DNA of 64,000 bases from Cyanobacteria bacterium FACHB-63 (lineage in GTDB: Bacteria > Cyanobacteriota > Cyanobacteriia > Leptolyngbyales > Leptolyngbyaceae), in contig JACJNX010000040.1 in NCBI GenBank assembly GCA_014695255.1, forward strand, positions 1 to 64,000, written 5' to 3'. Position numbers and translations under genes: made by a program. Below the pieces are notes generated by a model. That model was not told where the DNA came from. It saw only the letters and a program-made list of their open reading frames with translations, and made no database searches. Every line of letters begins with the position of its first letter. The stretch's first letter is position 1. Shown in pieces: positions 21,015 through 26,863 of the stretch.

Positions 21015-21100
21015 ATTTCCATTCTGCCGGATTCGCTCCAAAGTCTCAAAACTTTTCCGATAGAGTTTCTAGAATTTAGGCATTGATTACCGGAGTCATT

Positions 21101-21799
21101 ATGCTCGATCTTTATTATTGGACAACCCCGAACGGACACAAGATCACGATGTTCCTCGAAGAAGTGGGATTACCCTATAATCTTGTGCCCATCAACATTG
21201 GTAAAGGGGATCAGTTTCAGCCAGAGTTTCTTAAAATCTCGCCAAACAACCGGATTCCGGCGATCGTCGATCGCGATCCCGCAGGCGGCGGTGATCCAAT
21301 CTCGGTCTTTGAATCGGGCGCAATTTTGTTATATCTCGCTGAAAAAACAGGACAACTCGTTCCCTCAGATTTGCGGGGTCGGACTGAAGTGCTGCAATGG
21401 TTATTCTGGCAAATGGGCGGTTTGGGTCCAATGGCGGGACAAAATCATCACTTTAGCCAGTATGCACCAGAGAAAATTCCTTATGCAATCGATCGGTATG
21501 TGAATGAAACGGGGCGATTGTATGCGGTCTTAAATAAGCGATTGAGCGACCGGGAATATGTGGCGGGGGAGTATTCGATCGCAGATATTGCCTGTTATCC
21601 GTGGATTGTTCCGTATGAGCGGCAGGGACAGAAGCTCGAAGATTTTCCGAATTTGCAGCGTTGGTTTGAGGCGATTCGATCGCGTCCGGCAACGATTCGA
21701 GCCTATGAGAAAGCGGAAGCATTCAAGGCAGAACAAATTAGCCCGGATCAGGCGCGAGAATTATTGTTTAATCAATCGGCGGGAACCGTGAAACATTGA
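21101..21799 (+). CDS. Glutathione S-transferase family protein (YfcG/Ure2-like)
   Basis: A 232-aa protein with an N-terminal thioredoxin-like domain (LDLYYWTTPNGHKITMFLEE, PNNRIPAIVD, ESGAILLYLAEKTG) and an all-helical C-terminal domain. The TPNGHK stretch replaces the usual catalytic Ser/Tyr position, as in YfcG-type disulfide reductases. The function is probably disulfide reduction or stress response; the substrate is unknown. ATG 21101 was chosen over TTG 21083. A 16-nt tandem duplication spans its stop codon. Confidence 0.88.
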   Translation: MLDLYYWTTPNGHKITMFLEEVGLPYNLVPINIGKGDQFQPEFLKISPNNRIPAIVDRDPAGGGDPISVFESGAILLYLAEKTGQLVPSDLRGRTEVLQWLFWQMGGLGPMAGQNHHFSQYAPEKIPYAIDRYVNETGRLYAVLNKRLSDREYVAGEYSIADIACYPWIVPYERQGQKLEDFPNLQRWFEAIRSRPATIRAYEKAEAFKAEQISPDQARELLFNQSAGTVKH

Positions 21800-21818
21800 T
21801 TTCGTGAAACATTGATTT
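21787..21818. repeat. 16-nt tandem duplication across the GST stop codon
   Basis: Two identical copies of CGTGAAACATTGATTT are directly adjacent (21787-21802, 21803-21818). The first copy contains the stop codon. It is the second stop-spanning tandem duplication in this window. Confidence 0.95.
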
Positions 21819-21836
21819 ATTGTGCCCCAAAACCAT

Positions 21837-21864
21837 GTAGAGACGCGATTAATCGCGTCTCTAC
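21837..21864. repeat. 28-bp perfect palindrome, dispersed cyanobacterial repeat type
   Basis: A perfect 28-bp palindrome centred on GATTAATC, with outer arms GTAGAGACGCG / CGCGTCTCTAC. Its sequence matches a palindromic repeat widespread between genes of many cyanobacteria. It may also stop GST transcripts. Confidence 0.85.
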
Positions 21865-21978
21865 GTCGTCGGGTAAACCGATCGTCACCAATCGGATCAC
21901 GCCAATTTCAAAAACCGAATCATTTCCCACACATCCCCAAAAATTGCCCATCGGTAGACAATCGAACCACGATCGCGC

Positions 21979-22010
21979 AAAAGGATGAAGCCATCCGACT
22001 CCATCCTTTT
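21979..22010 (-). terminator. psaB terminator
   Basis: A 9-bp stem AAAAGGATG / CATCCTTTT with a 14-nt loop lies 34 bases beyond the psaB stop. On each strand the stem ends in T residues, so it can act in both directions. Confidence 0.7.
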
Positions 22011-22043
22011 CTTTAATATTTAGCCTCAGTCACTAGCAGCACA

Positions 22044-24260
22044 TCAAGCAAATTTACCTGTCGTTGCAGCAATCAAGAACGCCGCATACGTCAGAATATA
22101 ACCCACCGTGAAATGCACCAGACCCACTAACCAACCTTGAACGATCGACAGTGCCACAGGCTTGTCTTTGAATCGAATCAAGTTTGCCAGTGGTGTACGT
22201 TCGTGCGCCCACACCAGCGTCTCAATTAGCTCTTGCCAATATCCACGCCAGCTAATCAAGAACATAAAGCCCGTTGCCCAGACCAAGTGACCAAACAGGA
22301 ACATCCACGCCCAAACCGATAGATTGCTGGTTCCGTAGACGTTGTATCCGTTGATCAACGGTGCTGAATACTGCCAGAGATAATCCCGTAGCCATCCCAT
22401 CAGATAGGTTGAACTCTCATTGAACTGAGCGACGTTACCCGACCAGATCGCAAGATGCTTCCAGTGCCAGTAGAACGTCACCCAACCGATCGTATTCAGC
22501 ATCCAGAACGTAGCCAAATAGAAAGATTGTTCCCAAGAAGCAATTTGGCAAGTACCGCCACGACCCGGACCATCACACGGGAAGTTAAAGCCAAAGTCTT
22601 TCTTATCTGGCATCAACTTGCTACCGCGAGCATCCAGCGCACCCTTCAGACAGATCAGCGTTGTCACATGTAAACCAAGCGCGATCGCATGGTGTACCAA
22701 AAAGTCACCCGGACCAATAGTCAGGAACAATGAATTCGTACCACTGTTAATTGCGTCTAACCAACCTGGTAAGTAGGCTGCTCCCGGATTTGATGCAATA
22801 CTATCTGGGTTAGACAGCAGTGCATTAAAGCCATAGAGTGCTTTACCATGAGAGGCTTGCACAAATTGAGCAAACACAGGTTCGATCAGAATCTGCTTTT
22901 CTGGTGCGCCAAACGCAACTTGAACATCATTGTGAACATAGAGTCCAAGCGTGTGGAAGCCCAAGAATAGCGAAACCCAGCTCAAGTGCGAAATCAGTGC
23001 TTCTTTATGTCCCAGCAATCGAGCTAGAACGTTGTTTTCATTGTTGTCTGGATCGTAATCTCGTACCCAGAAGATTCCAGCATGAGCGAATGCACCCACC
23101 ATGAAAAATCCAGCTAGATATTGATGGTGCGTGTAAAGCGATGCTTGCGTTGTGAAATCTTTGGACATGAACGCATAAGGCGGCATCGCATACATATGCT
23201 GCGCTACCACTGAAAGCGCCGTTCCCAAAGCAGCAAGGTGAATCCCTAGCTGGAAGTGCAGCGAGTTGTTGTACGTGTCGTATAGCCCGGAGTGGGGTAG
23301 ATTACCTTGACCATTGATCCGACTACCAAAGAAGTTCTTCGCATTCAGAATATCTTTGATGCTGTGACCAATGCCAAAGTTCGTGCGGTACATATGACCC
23401 GCAATGATGAAAATCACGGCGATCGCTAAATGGTGATGCGCCATGTCAGTCAACCAAAGCGATTCAGTCTGTGGATGGAATCCACCCAAGAAGGTCAAGA
23501 TTGCAGAACCTGATCCTTGTGCCGTTCCAAAGATGTGATTTGCGGTATCTGGGTCTTGTGAGTAAACACTCCAGTTCCCGGTAAAGAACGGCTTTAAGCC
23601 TGCGGGGTGTGGCAGCGTAAACAGGAAGTTCTCCCAACCGACGTGCTGACCGCGAGATTCGGGGATCGCAACGTGAATTAAGTGACCTGCCCAAGCCAGA
23701 GAGCTAACACCAAACAATCCAGCCAAGTGGTGGTTTAAGCGAGATTCCGCATTTTTAAACCAAGCCAAACTCGGACGGAATTTCGGCTGGAGGTGGAGCC
23801 AACCTGCAAACAGGAACAATGCAGCGATCAAGAGCAGGAAGACTGCACCTTGATATAAGTCAGCATTCGTTCTCATACCGATCGTATACCACCAGTGATA
23901 CACGCCTGAATAAGCGATGTTCACTGGATAATCGGCTCCTCCTTGGGTATAAGCCTCGATCGCAGGCTTACCAAATTGAGGGTCCCAAATCGCATGAGCG
24001 ATCGGGCGGATGTGGAGTGGATCTTTGCTCCACTGAGGGAAATTGCCTTGCCATGCAACATGGAACAATAGGCTAGATGTCCAAAGAAAAATGATTGCAA
24101 CATGACCAAAGTGAGTCGCAAATATCTTTTGATACAGCTTCTCTTCGGTCATCCCATCGTGACTTTCAAAGTCGTGTGCGGTTGCAATCCCATACCAGAG
24201 TCGCCGTGTGGTTGGGTCTTGCGCGAGATCCTGGCTAAATTTTGGAAATTTAGTCGCCAT
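22044..24260 (-). CDS. psaB: Photosystem I P700 apoprotein A2 (PsaB), stand-alone copy
   Basis: A 738-aa, 11-TM-helix core protein of PSI. It has the FX-cluster cysteines in [12 protein letters not shown] (Cys562, Cys571), the P700 axial ligand His658 in [12 protein letters not shown], and the A0-region Met666, so the electron-transfer sites are intact. It is a few residues shorter than the usual 741 and differs from the common sequence in lumenal loops, for example near residues 490-495 where several residues are missing. The usual partner psaA is not upstream: the next gene is moaE on the other strand. It is probably an additional psaB (psaB2-like) used in a variant PSI, but a second psaA/psaB locus cannot be seen from here. 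Confidence 0.93.
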
Positions 24261-24613
24261 ATAAGTTGACTACTCGAATTTCATAAGTGGATCAGTTTAG
24301 ATTGAGTTGCCCGGAGATCAAATCGCTCGATCGTTCATTAGTTCAATAGATTAATGAAAGTTACACTCTCAGAGCTACGACCAAAGGTAGAGAATCTGTT
24401 TGTCAAATCTTGCATTTCTTATCGGAATTTCTGATTAAAGATTAATGAATCCTTGAAACATTGCGGTATGCCGCGAAGTGAATTTTTTCTGTTTTAGATA
24501 AAGATTTAAACTGCTTAATAATCAAAGTGATTACTGTTGGAGTAGGTAACTGCGGAGCAAGACTCACTGCAAAGCATCCCTTAGAATGTGAATGCAATGT
24601 TACATGAATTGCT
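24261..24613. promoter_or_regulatory. Divergent promoter region of psaB and moaE
   Basis: 353 AT-rich bases with no gene and no trace of psaA. It must contain the psaB promoter and its long leader. No defined operator was recognised. Confidence 0.5.
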
Positions 24614-25090
24614 ATGTTAGTTTCTCCGATCGGTGCTAAGTCGGTTCCTGTTCATCCGAATGATCAGCTTGTGATTACGATCGCGCCGTTGTCAGTCGAG
24701 GAAGTTTATAAGCAGGCAGATGATGCGGCGAATGGTGCGATCGTTCTAATGAGCGGTATGGTTCGCAATAATAGCGAGGGCTTTTCGGTGCTGCATCTGG
24801 AGTATCAAGCCTATGAACCGATGGCGATCGCGGTGTTCAGACAAATTGCAGCAGAGATTCGCCAAACTTGGACTGATGTGACTCATGTGGCAATTCATCA
24901 CCGAGTCGGACGGTTAGAGATTGGTGAGATTAGTGTGTTGATTGCTGTAGGTTGTCCACATCGCAAAGAAGCATTTGAGGCGTGTCAGTATGCGATCGAT
25001 ACGCTCAAGCATCGCGCCCCGATCTGGAAGAAGGAGTTTTACTACGGTAAAGCGGGCGAAGTGTGTTCGAGCTGGGTGAAATGCTGCTAG
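24614..25090 (+). CDS. moaE: Molybdopterin synthase catalytic subunit
   Basis: A 158-aa protein with the MoaE signatures GAIVLMSGMVRNN, LEYQAYEPMA, HRVGRLEIGE and the catalytic APIWKKE. With MoaD it transfers sulphur to precursor Z to form molybdopterin. No moaD is adjacent. The first 15 residues are an extension compared with E. coli MoaE. It is divergent from psaB. Confidence 0.94.
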   Translation: MLVSPIGAKSVPVHPNDQLVITIAPLSVEEVYKQADDAANGAIVLMSGMVRNNSEGFSVLHLEYQAYEPMAIAVFRQIAAEIRQTWTDVTHVAIHHRVGRLEIGEISVLIAVGCPHRKEAFEACQYAIDTLKHRAPIWKKEFYYGKAGEVCSSWVKCC

Positions 25091-25177: not shown

Positions 25178-26863
25178 ATCGAAACAGTCTACGGAAACCT
25201 CAACGGTCTAAAATCAAGCCAGATTAAACAGCTACAACGGCTGTATCATCAGCGCTTACCTGGCGATCGCATCACTACGTCTGAGTTTGCTCAGCGTATC
25301 GCCGCAATTAGCTCCGAAATTAGTCAGCCTGTCTGTGCTTATGTGAATCGTCGCGGTCAAGTGATTCGCGTTGGAGTCGGGACGATGAGGCAAACTCAGA
25401 TCCCGATGCTGGAGCTTCCACGCTATGGGGCAGAGCGCTTGTGTGGGATTCGCTGTATTGCCACCCAGTTGAAGCAAGACCCGCCCGGAGAATCGATGCT
25501 GACGGTGATGGCGCTTCAGCGCTTGGATGTGTTTGTGGCGTTGACGCTGACGGGAGGCGGATTTGAGCGCAGAGGGGGCGGTGCGACTGGGTATGTAAGA
25601 AATGCGTATTTGGCGCATCTGGTGCCGCATCCGGAAGCAAATTGGACGATTTCGCCGCCGTTGAGCCTAGATGTAATCGCAGAGCAAGATTTTCTGGCGC
25701 TGGTTGAGGGGCTGGAAGAAGAGTTCCGGCGGGAGTATGTCGCGCAACAGGTCGATCGCGATCACGATCAAGTGCTCATTGTGGGACTGCAAACGGACGA
25801 ATACTCCCCGCAAGCCTTTAAAACTTCACTACAAGAACTGGCGCGGCTAGTAGAAACCGCAGGTGGCGAAGTGCTGCAAACGATGACGCAAAAACGCCCG
25901 CGTCCTCATCCTCAAACTGTTGTGGGAGAAGGAAAAGTTCAGGAAATCACCTTAGCGGCTCAAACAGTTGGAGCCAGTTTGATTGTGTTCGATCGCGATC
26001 TTTCACCGGCTCAAATTCGTAACTTAGAAATGCAAATTGGGCTGCGGATTGTCGATCGTACCGAAGTGATTTTAGATATTTTCGCTCAGCGCGCTCAGTC
26101 GGGAGCCGGAAAGCTTCAAGTTGAACTGGCGCAACTTGAATATATGTTGCCGAGGCTTACAGGACGCGGACAGGCGATGTCTCGACTTGGCGGTGGGATT
26201 GGGACAAGAGGCCCTGGAGAAACGAAGCTAGAGACTGAGCGCCGAGCGATTCAACGACGCATCACACGGCTCCAGCAGGAAGTAACCCAGCTTCAGGCGC
26301 ATCGTGCCCGATTAAGACAGCGAAGACAGCATGAAGAAGTGCCTTCGATCGCAGTGGTGGGTTATACGAATGCAGGTAAATCGACTTTGCTCAATGCTTT
26401 AACGAATGCAGAAGTTTACACCGCAGATCAATTATTTGCAACGCTTGATCCAACCACTCGGAGATTAACCGTAACAGATTCGGAAACTCATCAAAACACA
26501 CAAATTCTATTAACGGATACTGTTGGATTTATTCATGAGTTACCGCCCTCGCTGATGGATGCGTTTCGGGCAACGTTAGAAGAAGTTACCGAAGCGGATG
26601 CACTTCTGCATGTGGTTGATTTATCGCATCCAGCTTGGCAAAGTCAGATTCGAGCGGTGATGCAAATTCTGTCTGAAATGCCGATTACTCCGGGGCCTGC
26701 GCTTTTAGCCTTTAACAAAATCGATCAGGTGGATGCGGAACAATTGGCGATCGCGCGTGAGGAATTTCCGCAAGCGGCGTTTATTTCGGCGAATGAGCGG
26801 TTGGGGTTGGAGACGTTGAGACAGCGCTTATGTCAGCTGGTGCGCTATGCGCTGTCGAGTTAA
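25178..26863 (+). CDS. hflX: GTPase HflX, apparently starting at ATC
   Basis: A 561-aa protein if it starts at ATC 25178; only 506 aa from the first standard start, GTG 25343. HflX is a ribosome-splitting GTPase. Domains: an HflX N-terminal region, a glycine-rich stretch GGGIGTRGPGETKLETE, and the G domain with G1 GYTNAGKST, G3 DTVGF and G4 NKID. The 55 codons before the GTG encode a sequence (ETVYGNLNGLKSSQIKQL, and so on) that matches the N-terminus of cyanobacterial HflX, where the initiator Met aligns with this ATC. An in-frame stop lies two codons before. A sequencing error is the alternative. Confidence 0.85.
   Translation: METVYGNLNGLKSSQIKQLQRLYHQRLPGDRITTSEFAQRIAAISSEISQPVCAYVNRRGQVIRVGVGTMRQTQIPMLELPRYGAERLCGIRCIATQLKQDPPGESMLTVMALQRLDVFVALTLTGGGFERRGGGATGYVRNAYLAHLVPHPEANWTISPPLSLDVIAEQDFLALVEGLEEEFRREYVAQQVDRDHDQVLIVGLQTDEYSPQAFKTSLQELARLVETAGGEVLQTMTQKRPRPHPQTVVGEGKVQEITLAAQTVGASLIVFDRDLSPAQIRNLEMQIGLRIVDRTEVILDIFAQRAQSGAGKLQVELAQLEYMLPRLTGRGQAMSRLGGGIGTRGPGETKLETERRAIQRRITRLQQEVTQLQAHRARLRQRRQHEEVPSIAVVGYTNAGKSTLLNALTNAEVYTADQLFATLDPTTRRLTVTDSETHQNTQILLTDTVGFIHELPPSLMDAFRATLEEVTEADALLHVVDLSHPAWQSQIRAVMQILSEMPITPGPALLAFNKIDQVDAEQLAIAREEFPQAAFISANERLGLETLRQRLCQLVRYALSS

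Follow-up and report, generated by a model that had tools for sequence, protein, structure and literature searches.

An orphan psaB3 gene in the cyanobacterium FACHB-63 and an apparently mosaic photosystem I core subunit

The psaB3 locus

The window, a 64,000-nt stretch of the genome of Cyanobacteria bacterium FACHB-63, exhibits an intact ORF (ATG start, 738 aa, no internal stops) corresponding to the photosystem I (PSI) core subunit PsaB (Table 1). The protein scores 1488.5 bits against the NCBIfam psaB equivalog TIGR01336 (cut-off 921.65), and 649.2 bits against the psaA model TIGR01335, which is under the cut-off of that model (862.55). The residues C562, C571, H658 and M666 are all kept, as an earlier note on this DNA had stated; by the alignment offset we take them to be C565, C574, H660 and M668 of 1JB0. 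The cysteines are the FX ligands, the histidine the ligand of P700 and the methionine that of A0. The gene stands alone between moaA and moaE, behind a 353-base upstream gap, both as the note had described, and one further ORF (glutathione-S-transferase-like) separates it from moaA. A terminator-like hairpin downstream of the gene suggests that psaB3 is transcribed by itself; the consensus scan that found it gave five sites over both strands of 21800-24700, against a mean of 2.5 (sd 1.6) in shuffled sequences.

Table 1. Features of the psaB3 locus in window coordinates (residue changes are given in 1JB0 numbering, followed by the residue of the window protein)
Feature	Position	Strand	Basis or remark
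MoaA	20028-21041	-	neighbour of psaB3
Glutathione-S-transferase-like ORF	21083-21799	+	between moaA and psaB3
Terminator-like hairpin, 12 pairs, 7 G-C	21837..21864	-	consensus scan; downstream of psaB3
psaB3, orphan variant PSI core subunit PsaB, 738 aa	22044..24260	-	ORF, psaB model score, Gln-insertion pattern match
R712 to Trp, residue 710	22131..22133	-	residue comparison
His658-Met666 including Thr663 and Gly664	22263..22289	-	residue comparison; visible-light, not far-red, residues
D580 to Glu plus inserted Gln, residues 577-578	22527..22532	-	residue comparison
D575 to Gln, residue 572	22545..22547	-	residue comparison
FX-binding loop Cys562-Cys571 (1JB0 Cys565, Cys574)	22548..22577	-	alignment
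Tyr561 to Phe, residue 558	22587..22589	-	residue comparison
Leu540 to Cys, residue 537	22650..22652	-	residue comparison
5' leader of psaB3	24261..24613	-	proximal ~190 bases (about 24261-24450) conserved in 6/8 genus genomes
MoaE-like	24614-25090	+	best model scores under own curated cut-off
HflX	25343-26863	+	neighbour beyond MoaE-like

The conserved leader is present in the source genome (G000) and in G018, G019, G020, G021 and G023, and is absent from G017 and G022. The same six of the eight genus members share the neighbourhood on the moaA side, and five of them (all except G023) share that on the moaE side. No such moa-locus neighbours occur within about 5-6 kb of psaB3 in G017, G022, G027 and G028. 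The moa genes therefore mark a place and not a function, and a molybdenum link for psaB3, which we had considered, is rejected on this ground.

Beside psaB3 of the genus members G017 and G022, and of G172, a genome of another family, lies a regulator of the PAS-CRP family (about 385 aa; L200:4288-5448(+), L205:4786-5943(+) and L211:8152-9309(-)); that of G172 is 38-39% identical. It was found beside no other psaB3 in any of the fetched loci. Each of the 42 family genomes that were searched contains relatives of some degree, the best match in the source genome lying on contig C165, away from psaB3. Since such relatives are common, a functional link with psaB3 is unproven, and a dedicated psaB3 regulator is one possible reading of this protein.

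The genome-wide search for psaA and psaB that the earlier note had called for gives three PF00223 matches in the source genome (7.2 Mb, 99.98% complete; the window lies on contig C115): the orphan psaB3 and a canonical psaA-psaB pair on contig C2 (40949-45306, 23 nt between the genes). The window protein was said to be shorter than usual, but at 738 aa it is longer than the canonical PsaB (733 aa) of its own genome, to which it is 86.8% identical over residues 1-520 and 90.3% identical from 521 on. The two share the FX cysteines, His658, Met666 and a short lumenal loop. They differ in L540C, Y561F, D575Q, D580E, an additional Gln and R712W, and the window copy does not stand behind a psaA and has a much weaker codon bias.

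The lumenal loop had been singled out as divergent near residues 490-495. The loop (near 487-494) is indeed short in the window protein; it is equally short in the canonical PsaB of the same genome, so the feature is not specific to the window copy. In all 15 genomes compared, loop length agrees between both PsaB copies (7 short, 8 long). Loop length thus tracks the genome and not the isoform, and was rejected as a hallmark.

Residues that characterize PsaB3

We compared 149 distinct PsaB sequences, of which 46 carry the insertion (PsaB3), 96 are canonical and seven were taken as far-red (FaRLiP) copies since each adjoins a second psaA-like match; the named rows come from the best 80 of 577 loci ranked by nearness to the window protein, and the set is accordingly not a random sample. 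Positions were called diagnostic when a residue reached at least 75% in one type and at most 15% in the other (PsaB3 against canonical). Six positions satisfy this definition: 537 C, 558 F, 572 Q, 577 E/Q, the inserted 578 Q and 710 W, or L540C, Y561F, D575Q, D580E/Q, +Q and R712W when numbered via the alignment with 1JB0. All lie within residues 537-710, in the reaction-centre half, and there is no diagnostic position in residues 1-536 between the 46 PsaB3 and the 96 canonical sequences.

Residues 572, 578 and 710 are invariant in PsaB3. Position 572 is Gln in 46/46 PsaB3 and Asp (94) or Glu (2) in the 96 canonical sequences; position 710 is Trp in 46/46 and Arg in 94/96, respectively. The Gln at 578, the motif by which the PsaB3 and canonical groups were sorted, is present in 46/46 PsaB3 and faces a gap in all 96 canonical and all seven FaRLiP-type rows. 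The preceding residue 577 is Glu (38) or Gln (8) in PsaB3 and Asp in every canonical sequence, position 558 is Phe in 44/46 PsaB3 (canonical: 89 Tyr, 7 Phe), and position 537 is Cys in 44/46 PsaB3 and Leu in 96/96 canonical. The PsaA of the source genome carries the PsaB3-type residue at D575 (Gln) and at Y561 (Phe), and at none of the other diagnostic positions. An AlphaFold2 model of the window protein (mean pLDDT 35.5) was left out of the evidence.

PsaB3, first named PsaB2 in Nostoc punctiforme, is defined in the literature by a Gln insertion and other changes beside FX and a phylloquinone (PMC10694217; PMC4582080), and its occurrence in Leptolyngbyales and in Leptolyngbya ohadii has already been noted (PMC10694217). 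The insertion beside FX being the published mark of PsaB3, the window gene is identified as psaB3, and this orphan adds one more to a type already described. The earlier note had suggested that the window copy might differ in type from the extra copies of heterocystous strains. This is not borne out: it exhibits the same Gln insertion and FX-pocket changes and falls in the same reaction-centre clade; like N. punctiforme PsaB2, the third PsaB paralogue of PMC10694217, it is extra to a canonical psaA-psaB, has no second psaA and is unrelated to FaRLiP. It differs in that its loop length and a large share of its residue background are those of its own genus, and in its position between moa genes, seen only in part of that genus.

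Two variations were seen at the second FX cysteine: three PsaB3 from Anabaena/Trichormus (L052, L061 and L096) have GGSC, not GGTC, before it, and the PsaB3 of L209 has GRSG at the same place. A different kind of PsaB duplication, with psaA followed by two tandem canonical psaB genes, occurs in L050, L064 (Rhizonema) and L068 (Nostocales HT-58-2).

Selection and codon usage

In six within-genus comparisons the dN/dS of psaB3 is 0.009-0.031, indicating purifying selection, with the reservation that dS exceeds 1 in five of the six and the ratio is rough there. For psaB1, the canonical gene, dN/dS is 0.023-0.042 in five pairs. The dS of psaB3 is 2.4-3.0 times that of psaB1 in four of five strain pairs and equal to it in the closest pair. 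At the level of the sequence, the idea of an extra PsaB for a variant PSI is hence supported: a second, conserved PsaB under purifying selection exists besides a complete psaA-psaB operon.

The effective number of codons (ENC) is 55.2 for the window psaB3 against 46.8 for psaB1 of the same genome, and the same difference is found in three other genus members. Codon adaptation is 0.608 for psaB3 against 0.745 for psaB1, which belongs to the reference, and ranges from 0.503 to 0.67 in eight neighbouring genes. This codon bias suggests that psaB3 is a minor isoform in the source strain. In L. ohadii and Chlorogloeopsis, PsaB3 is reported to be produced and incorporated into PSI (PMC10694217), and psaB3 transcripts of Chlorogloeopsis to rise about 2.5-fold in far-red light (PMC6424891).

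Alternative explanations

A psaB that lies alone between moaA and moaE might merely have been relocated, the operon being split with psaA elsewhere and the window copy the sole psaB, as the earlier note recognized when it named this case as fatal to its proposal. The complete pair on C2 of the same genome, its genes only 23 nt apart, leaves this explanation virtually no chance. As an extra PsaB the gene could also be the far-red (FaRLiP) PsaB2, likewise an alternative PsaB of some cyanobacteria, or another chlorophyll f/d isoform, and seven FaRLiP-type psaB genes do occur elsewhere in the family, each beside a second psaA-like match. However, the single psaA of the source genome does not adjoin the window gene, and the Gln insertion is absent from all seven FaRLiP-type copies. 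Residues T663, G664 and S670 of the window protein are those of its own canonical PsaB, whereas two FaRLiP-type copies have V/I, S and T; the far-red PsaB2 reference residues given in PMC10694217 are Val/Ile666, Ser667 and Thr673. With no second psaA and with visible-light residues, a far-red isoform is exceedingly improbable.

The gene could be a redundant or decaying spare with no function of its own, in keeping with its weaker codon bias and with a dS above that of psaB1 in four of five strain pairs, but such a copy would hardly exhibit a dN/dS of 0.009-0.031, be kept in 8/8 genus members and conserve Gln572, Gln578 and Trp710 in 46/46 relatives; we regard decay as very unlikely. A more serious candidate is an isoform for nitrogen fixation or microoxic growth, with an altered acceptor side that is efficient, and safe only at low O2. 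Such a role was proposed for N. punctiforme PsaB2 (PMC4582080), the source strain has nifD, and D575Q renders the B side PsaA-like at that position. The distribution of the genes argues otherwise. The insertion pattern is found in at least 28 of 388 genomes of the class, a lower bound since at least three Anabaena/Trichormus copies, which have GGSC, escape it, and in 18 of 160 genera; nifD over the cut-off is found in 117 of the 388. No association between the two is seen, nifD being present in 9/28 PsaB3 genomes versus 108/360 others (Fisher p 0.83, a rough test as related genomes are not independent). Within the genus the pattern is present in all eight genomes and nifD over the cut-off in three, the other five bearing PsaB3 without it, and PsaB3 is the sole PsaB found in eight assemblies that have photosystem II (PSII) genes (see below). 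The missing association weakens an anaerobic role at the genome level and speaks against its simplest form; we consider it doubtful, though the least improbable of these alternatives. Most probably, then, the window gene is psaB3 in the sense of a second visible-light PsaB isoform, used in a minority of PSI to tune the acceptor side and not to harvest far-red light.

Genomes with PsaB3 as the only PsaB found

In eight assemblies PF00223 detects psaA and only an insertion-type psaB, with no canonical psaB found; several of these are metagenome-assembled genomes (MAGs) that may miss a second psaB, and the claim is carried by G075 (one contig) and by Microcoleus sp. FACHB-1515 (G101, identical to G046), which is not labelled a MAG. 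The others are G089, G102, G286 (identical to G043; 74% complete, with psaA broken into two matches), Chroococcidiopsidaceae YX2bin18 (G044), Scytonema hyalinum (G045) and Spirirestis rafaelensis (G042), the last with a second, orphan PsaB3. In the seven assemblies with a whole psaA, the gap between psaA and psaB3 is 24-222 nt. Genes of the PSII D1/D2 family are present in seven of the eight, and genes of the CP43/CP47 family in the eighth, FACHB-1515, where PF00124 gives no match; that absence may be a gap of assembly or search, which is unproven. Where computed, a sole psaB3 is strongly biased in its codon usage (ENC 43.3 in G075 and 42.3 in FACHB-1515), as psaB1 is.

There appear, then, to be relatives in which PsaB3 is the only PsaB, and as such it would not be confined to special conditions everywhere. 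In such natural strains PSI should consist of PsaB3-PSI alone, which would allow A1/FX kinetics, recombination and oxygen damage to be studied on an unmixed preparation. In the open-access literature searched, as far as its text was available, we found no description of PsaB3-only genomes or PsaB3 mosaics; these and the lack of a nitrogenase association were not found in print, the window gene itself being of the known PsaB3 type. In G070 and G004, partial psaB matches stop at contig ends.

Apparent mosaic evolution of PsaB3

The two halves of the protein yield different trees. For the antenna half (residues 1-520) the 46 PsaB3 split into 11 groups, several of which are placed next to the canonical PsaB from the same genome: G099 (support 0.92), G113 (0.989) and G163 together with the PsaB3 of G240 (0.939). 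With 62 chosen rows this half requires 10 changes of type, and a single PsaB3 clade is rejected (log-likelihood difference 287, p-AU 8e-44). For the reaction-centre half PsaB3 forms one clade (46/46, support 0.988), and in a second tree all 27 PsaB3 again fall in one clade (support 98) with one change of type. When the six diagnostic columns are removed, this half gives six changes and PsaB3 is not one clade, a single clade being not rejected (p-AU 0.139). Since the antenna half rejects the common clade that the reaction-centre half supports, PsaB3 looks mosaic.

G240 (L224-L226) has eight PsaA/PsaB matches: two canonical psaB at contig ends, each accompanied by the tail of a psaA, front parts of psaA on other contigs, and a PsaB3. 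A psaA-psaB duplication that was fragmented in the assembly may account for this.

A 60-residue profile over 17 two-copy genomes places PsaB3 on average nearer to the canonical PsaB of its own genome than to the PsaB3 of other groups, except in segments 511-570, 541-600 and 661-720, with 571-630 even. The window gene fits this average only in part. It is nearer to other PsaB3 in 271-360 (70 vs 80 and 60 vs 73, own canonical PsaB first), slightly nearer to its own canonical PsaB in 541-600 (87 vs 85) and 661-720 (95 vs 93), and about even in 511-570. Its antenna half groups with the PsaB3 of its genus, of G027, of the PsaB3-only G075, G089 and G102, and of G043 (0.974), which indicates that the window copy has not been overwritten by its own psaB1. 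Nor was recent gene conversion with psaB1 seen in the source genome (longest identical codon run 8, p 0.28).

The conversion test gave p<0.01 in three of 24 same-genome pairs (G027, G113 and T09) versus five of 120 cross-genome pairs, and among the same-genome pairs that pass, conversion is compelling only in G113 (47 codons, residues 24-73). There, psaB3 and psaB1 (L189/L176) share 152 identical bases at about these residues, a recent gene-conversion tract, and four-fold sites are 74% identical in the first half vs 47% in the second. Recombination is thus shown in this one genome, and elsewhere we infer it; alternatively, the mosaic pattern may have arisen as both copies adapted in parallel to the same partner subunits.

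Our judgement is evenly divided on a wider proposal, namely that PsaB3 would be less a gene lineage than a small group of residues that surround FX and the B-side quinone and can be selected as a set, kept linked while the rest is homogenized with the host PsaB by recombination. In several families this set would have entered or captured the psaA-psaB operon; all oxygenic photosynthesis there would then depend on a PSI with a neutral, PsaA-like residue 575 and a rebuilt FX pocket. If this is true, nature can dispense with an acidic residue that is credited with helping to make the two PSI branches unequal. The mosaic pattern points to a few residues apparently under selection and thereby names the mutants worth making.

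A possible role at the acceptor side

The PsaB3 changes are located in the FX loop and around R712/Trp710. We take D580 and R712 to be a salt-bridge pair between stromal loops. D575 lies with W673 in a network of waters close to the quinones; by calculation, protonating D575 changes the potential of the A-side quinone by about 80 mV (PMC8575901). The estimated difference between A1A and A1B (-531/-686 mV) has been proposed to protect against singlet oxygen (PMC5857716).

PsaB3 would replace PsaB in a minority of PSI complexes, paired with the ordinary PsaA. Acting together with the Gln insertion and with the D580E/R712W pair, the exchange of D575 for a neutral Gln as in PsaA would then shift the A1/FX reduction potentials and coupling. 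Because the published calculation on D575 concerns the A-side quinone, it is our own reading that the two branches would become less different, giving a retuned, more symmetric acceptor side. The frequency with which electrons go on to FX versus back to P700+ would be altered. The likely use would be to fine-tune the acceptor side of PSI under low oxygen or a shortage of acceptors, and not to harvest far-red light.

On the PsaA side, the helix after the FX loop is diverged in L037, L039, L040, L041 and L104, being FNTIAIAVYHFSW-like and not YNSLSIVIFHFSW; the partners of these PsaA include canonical PsaB as well as PsaB3.
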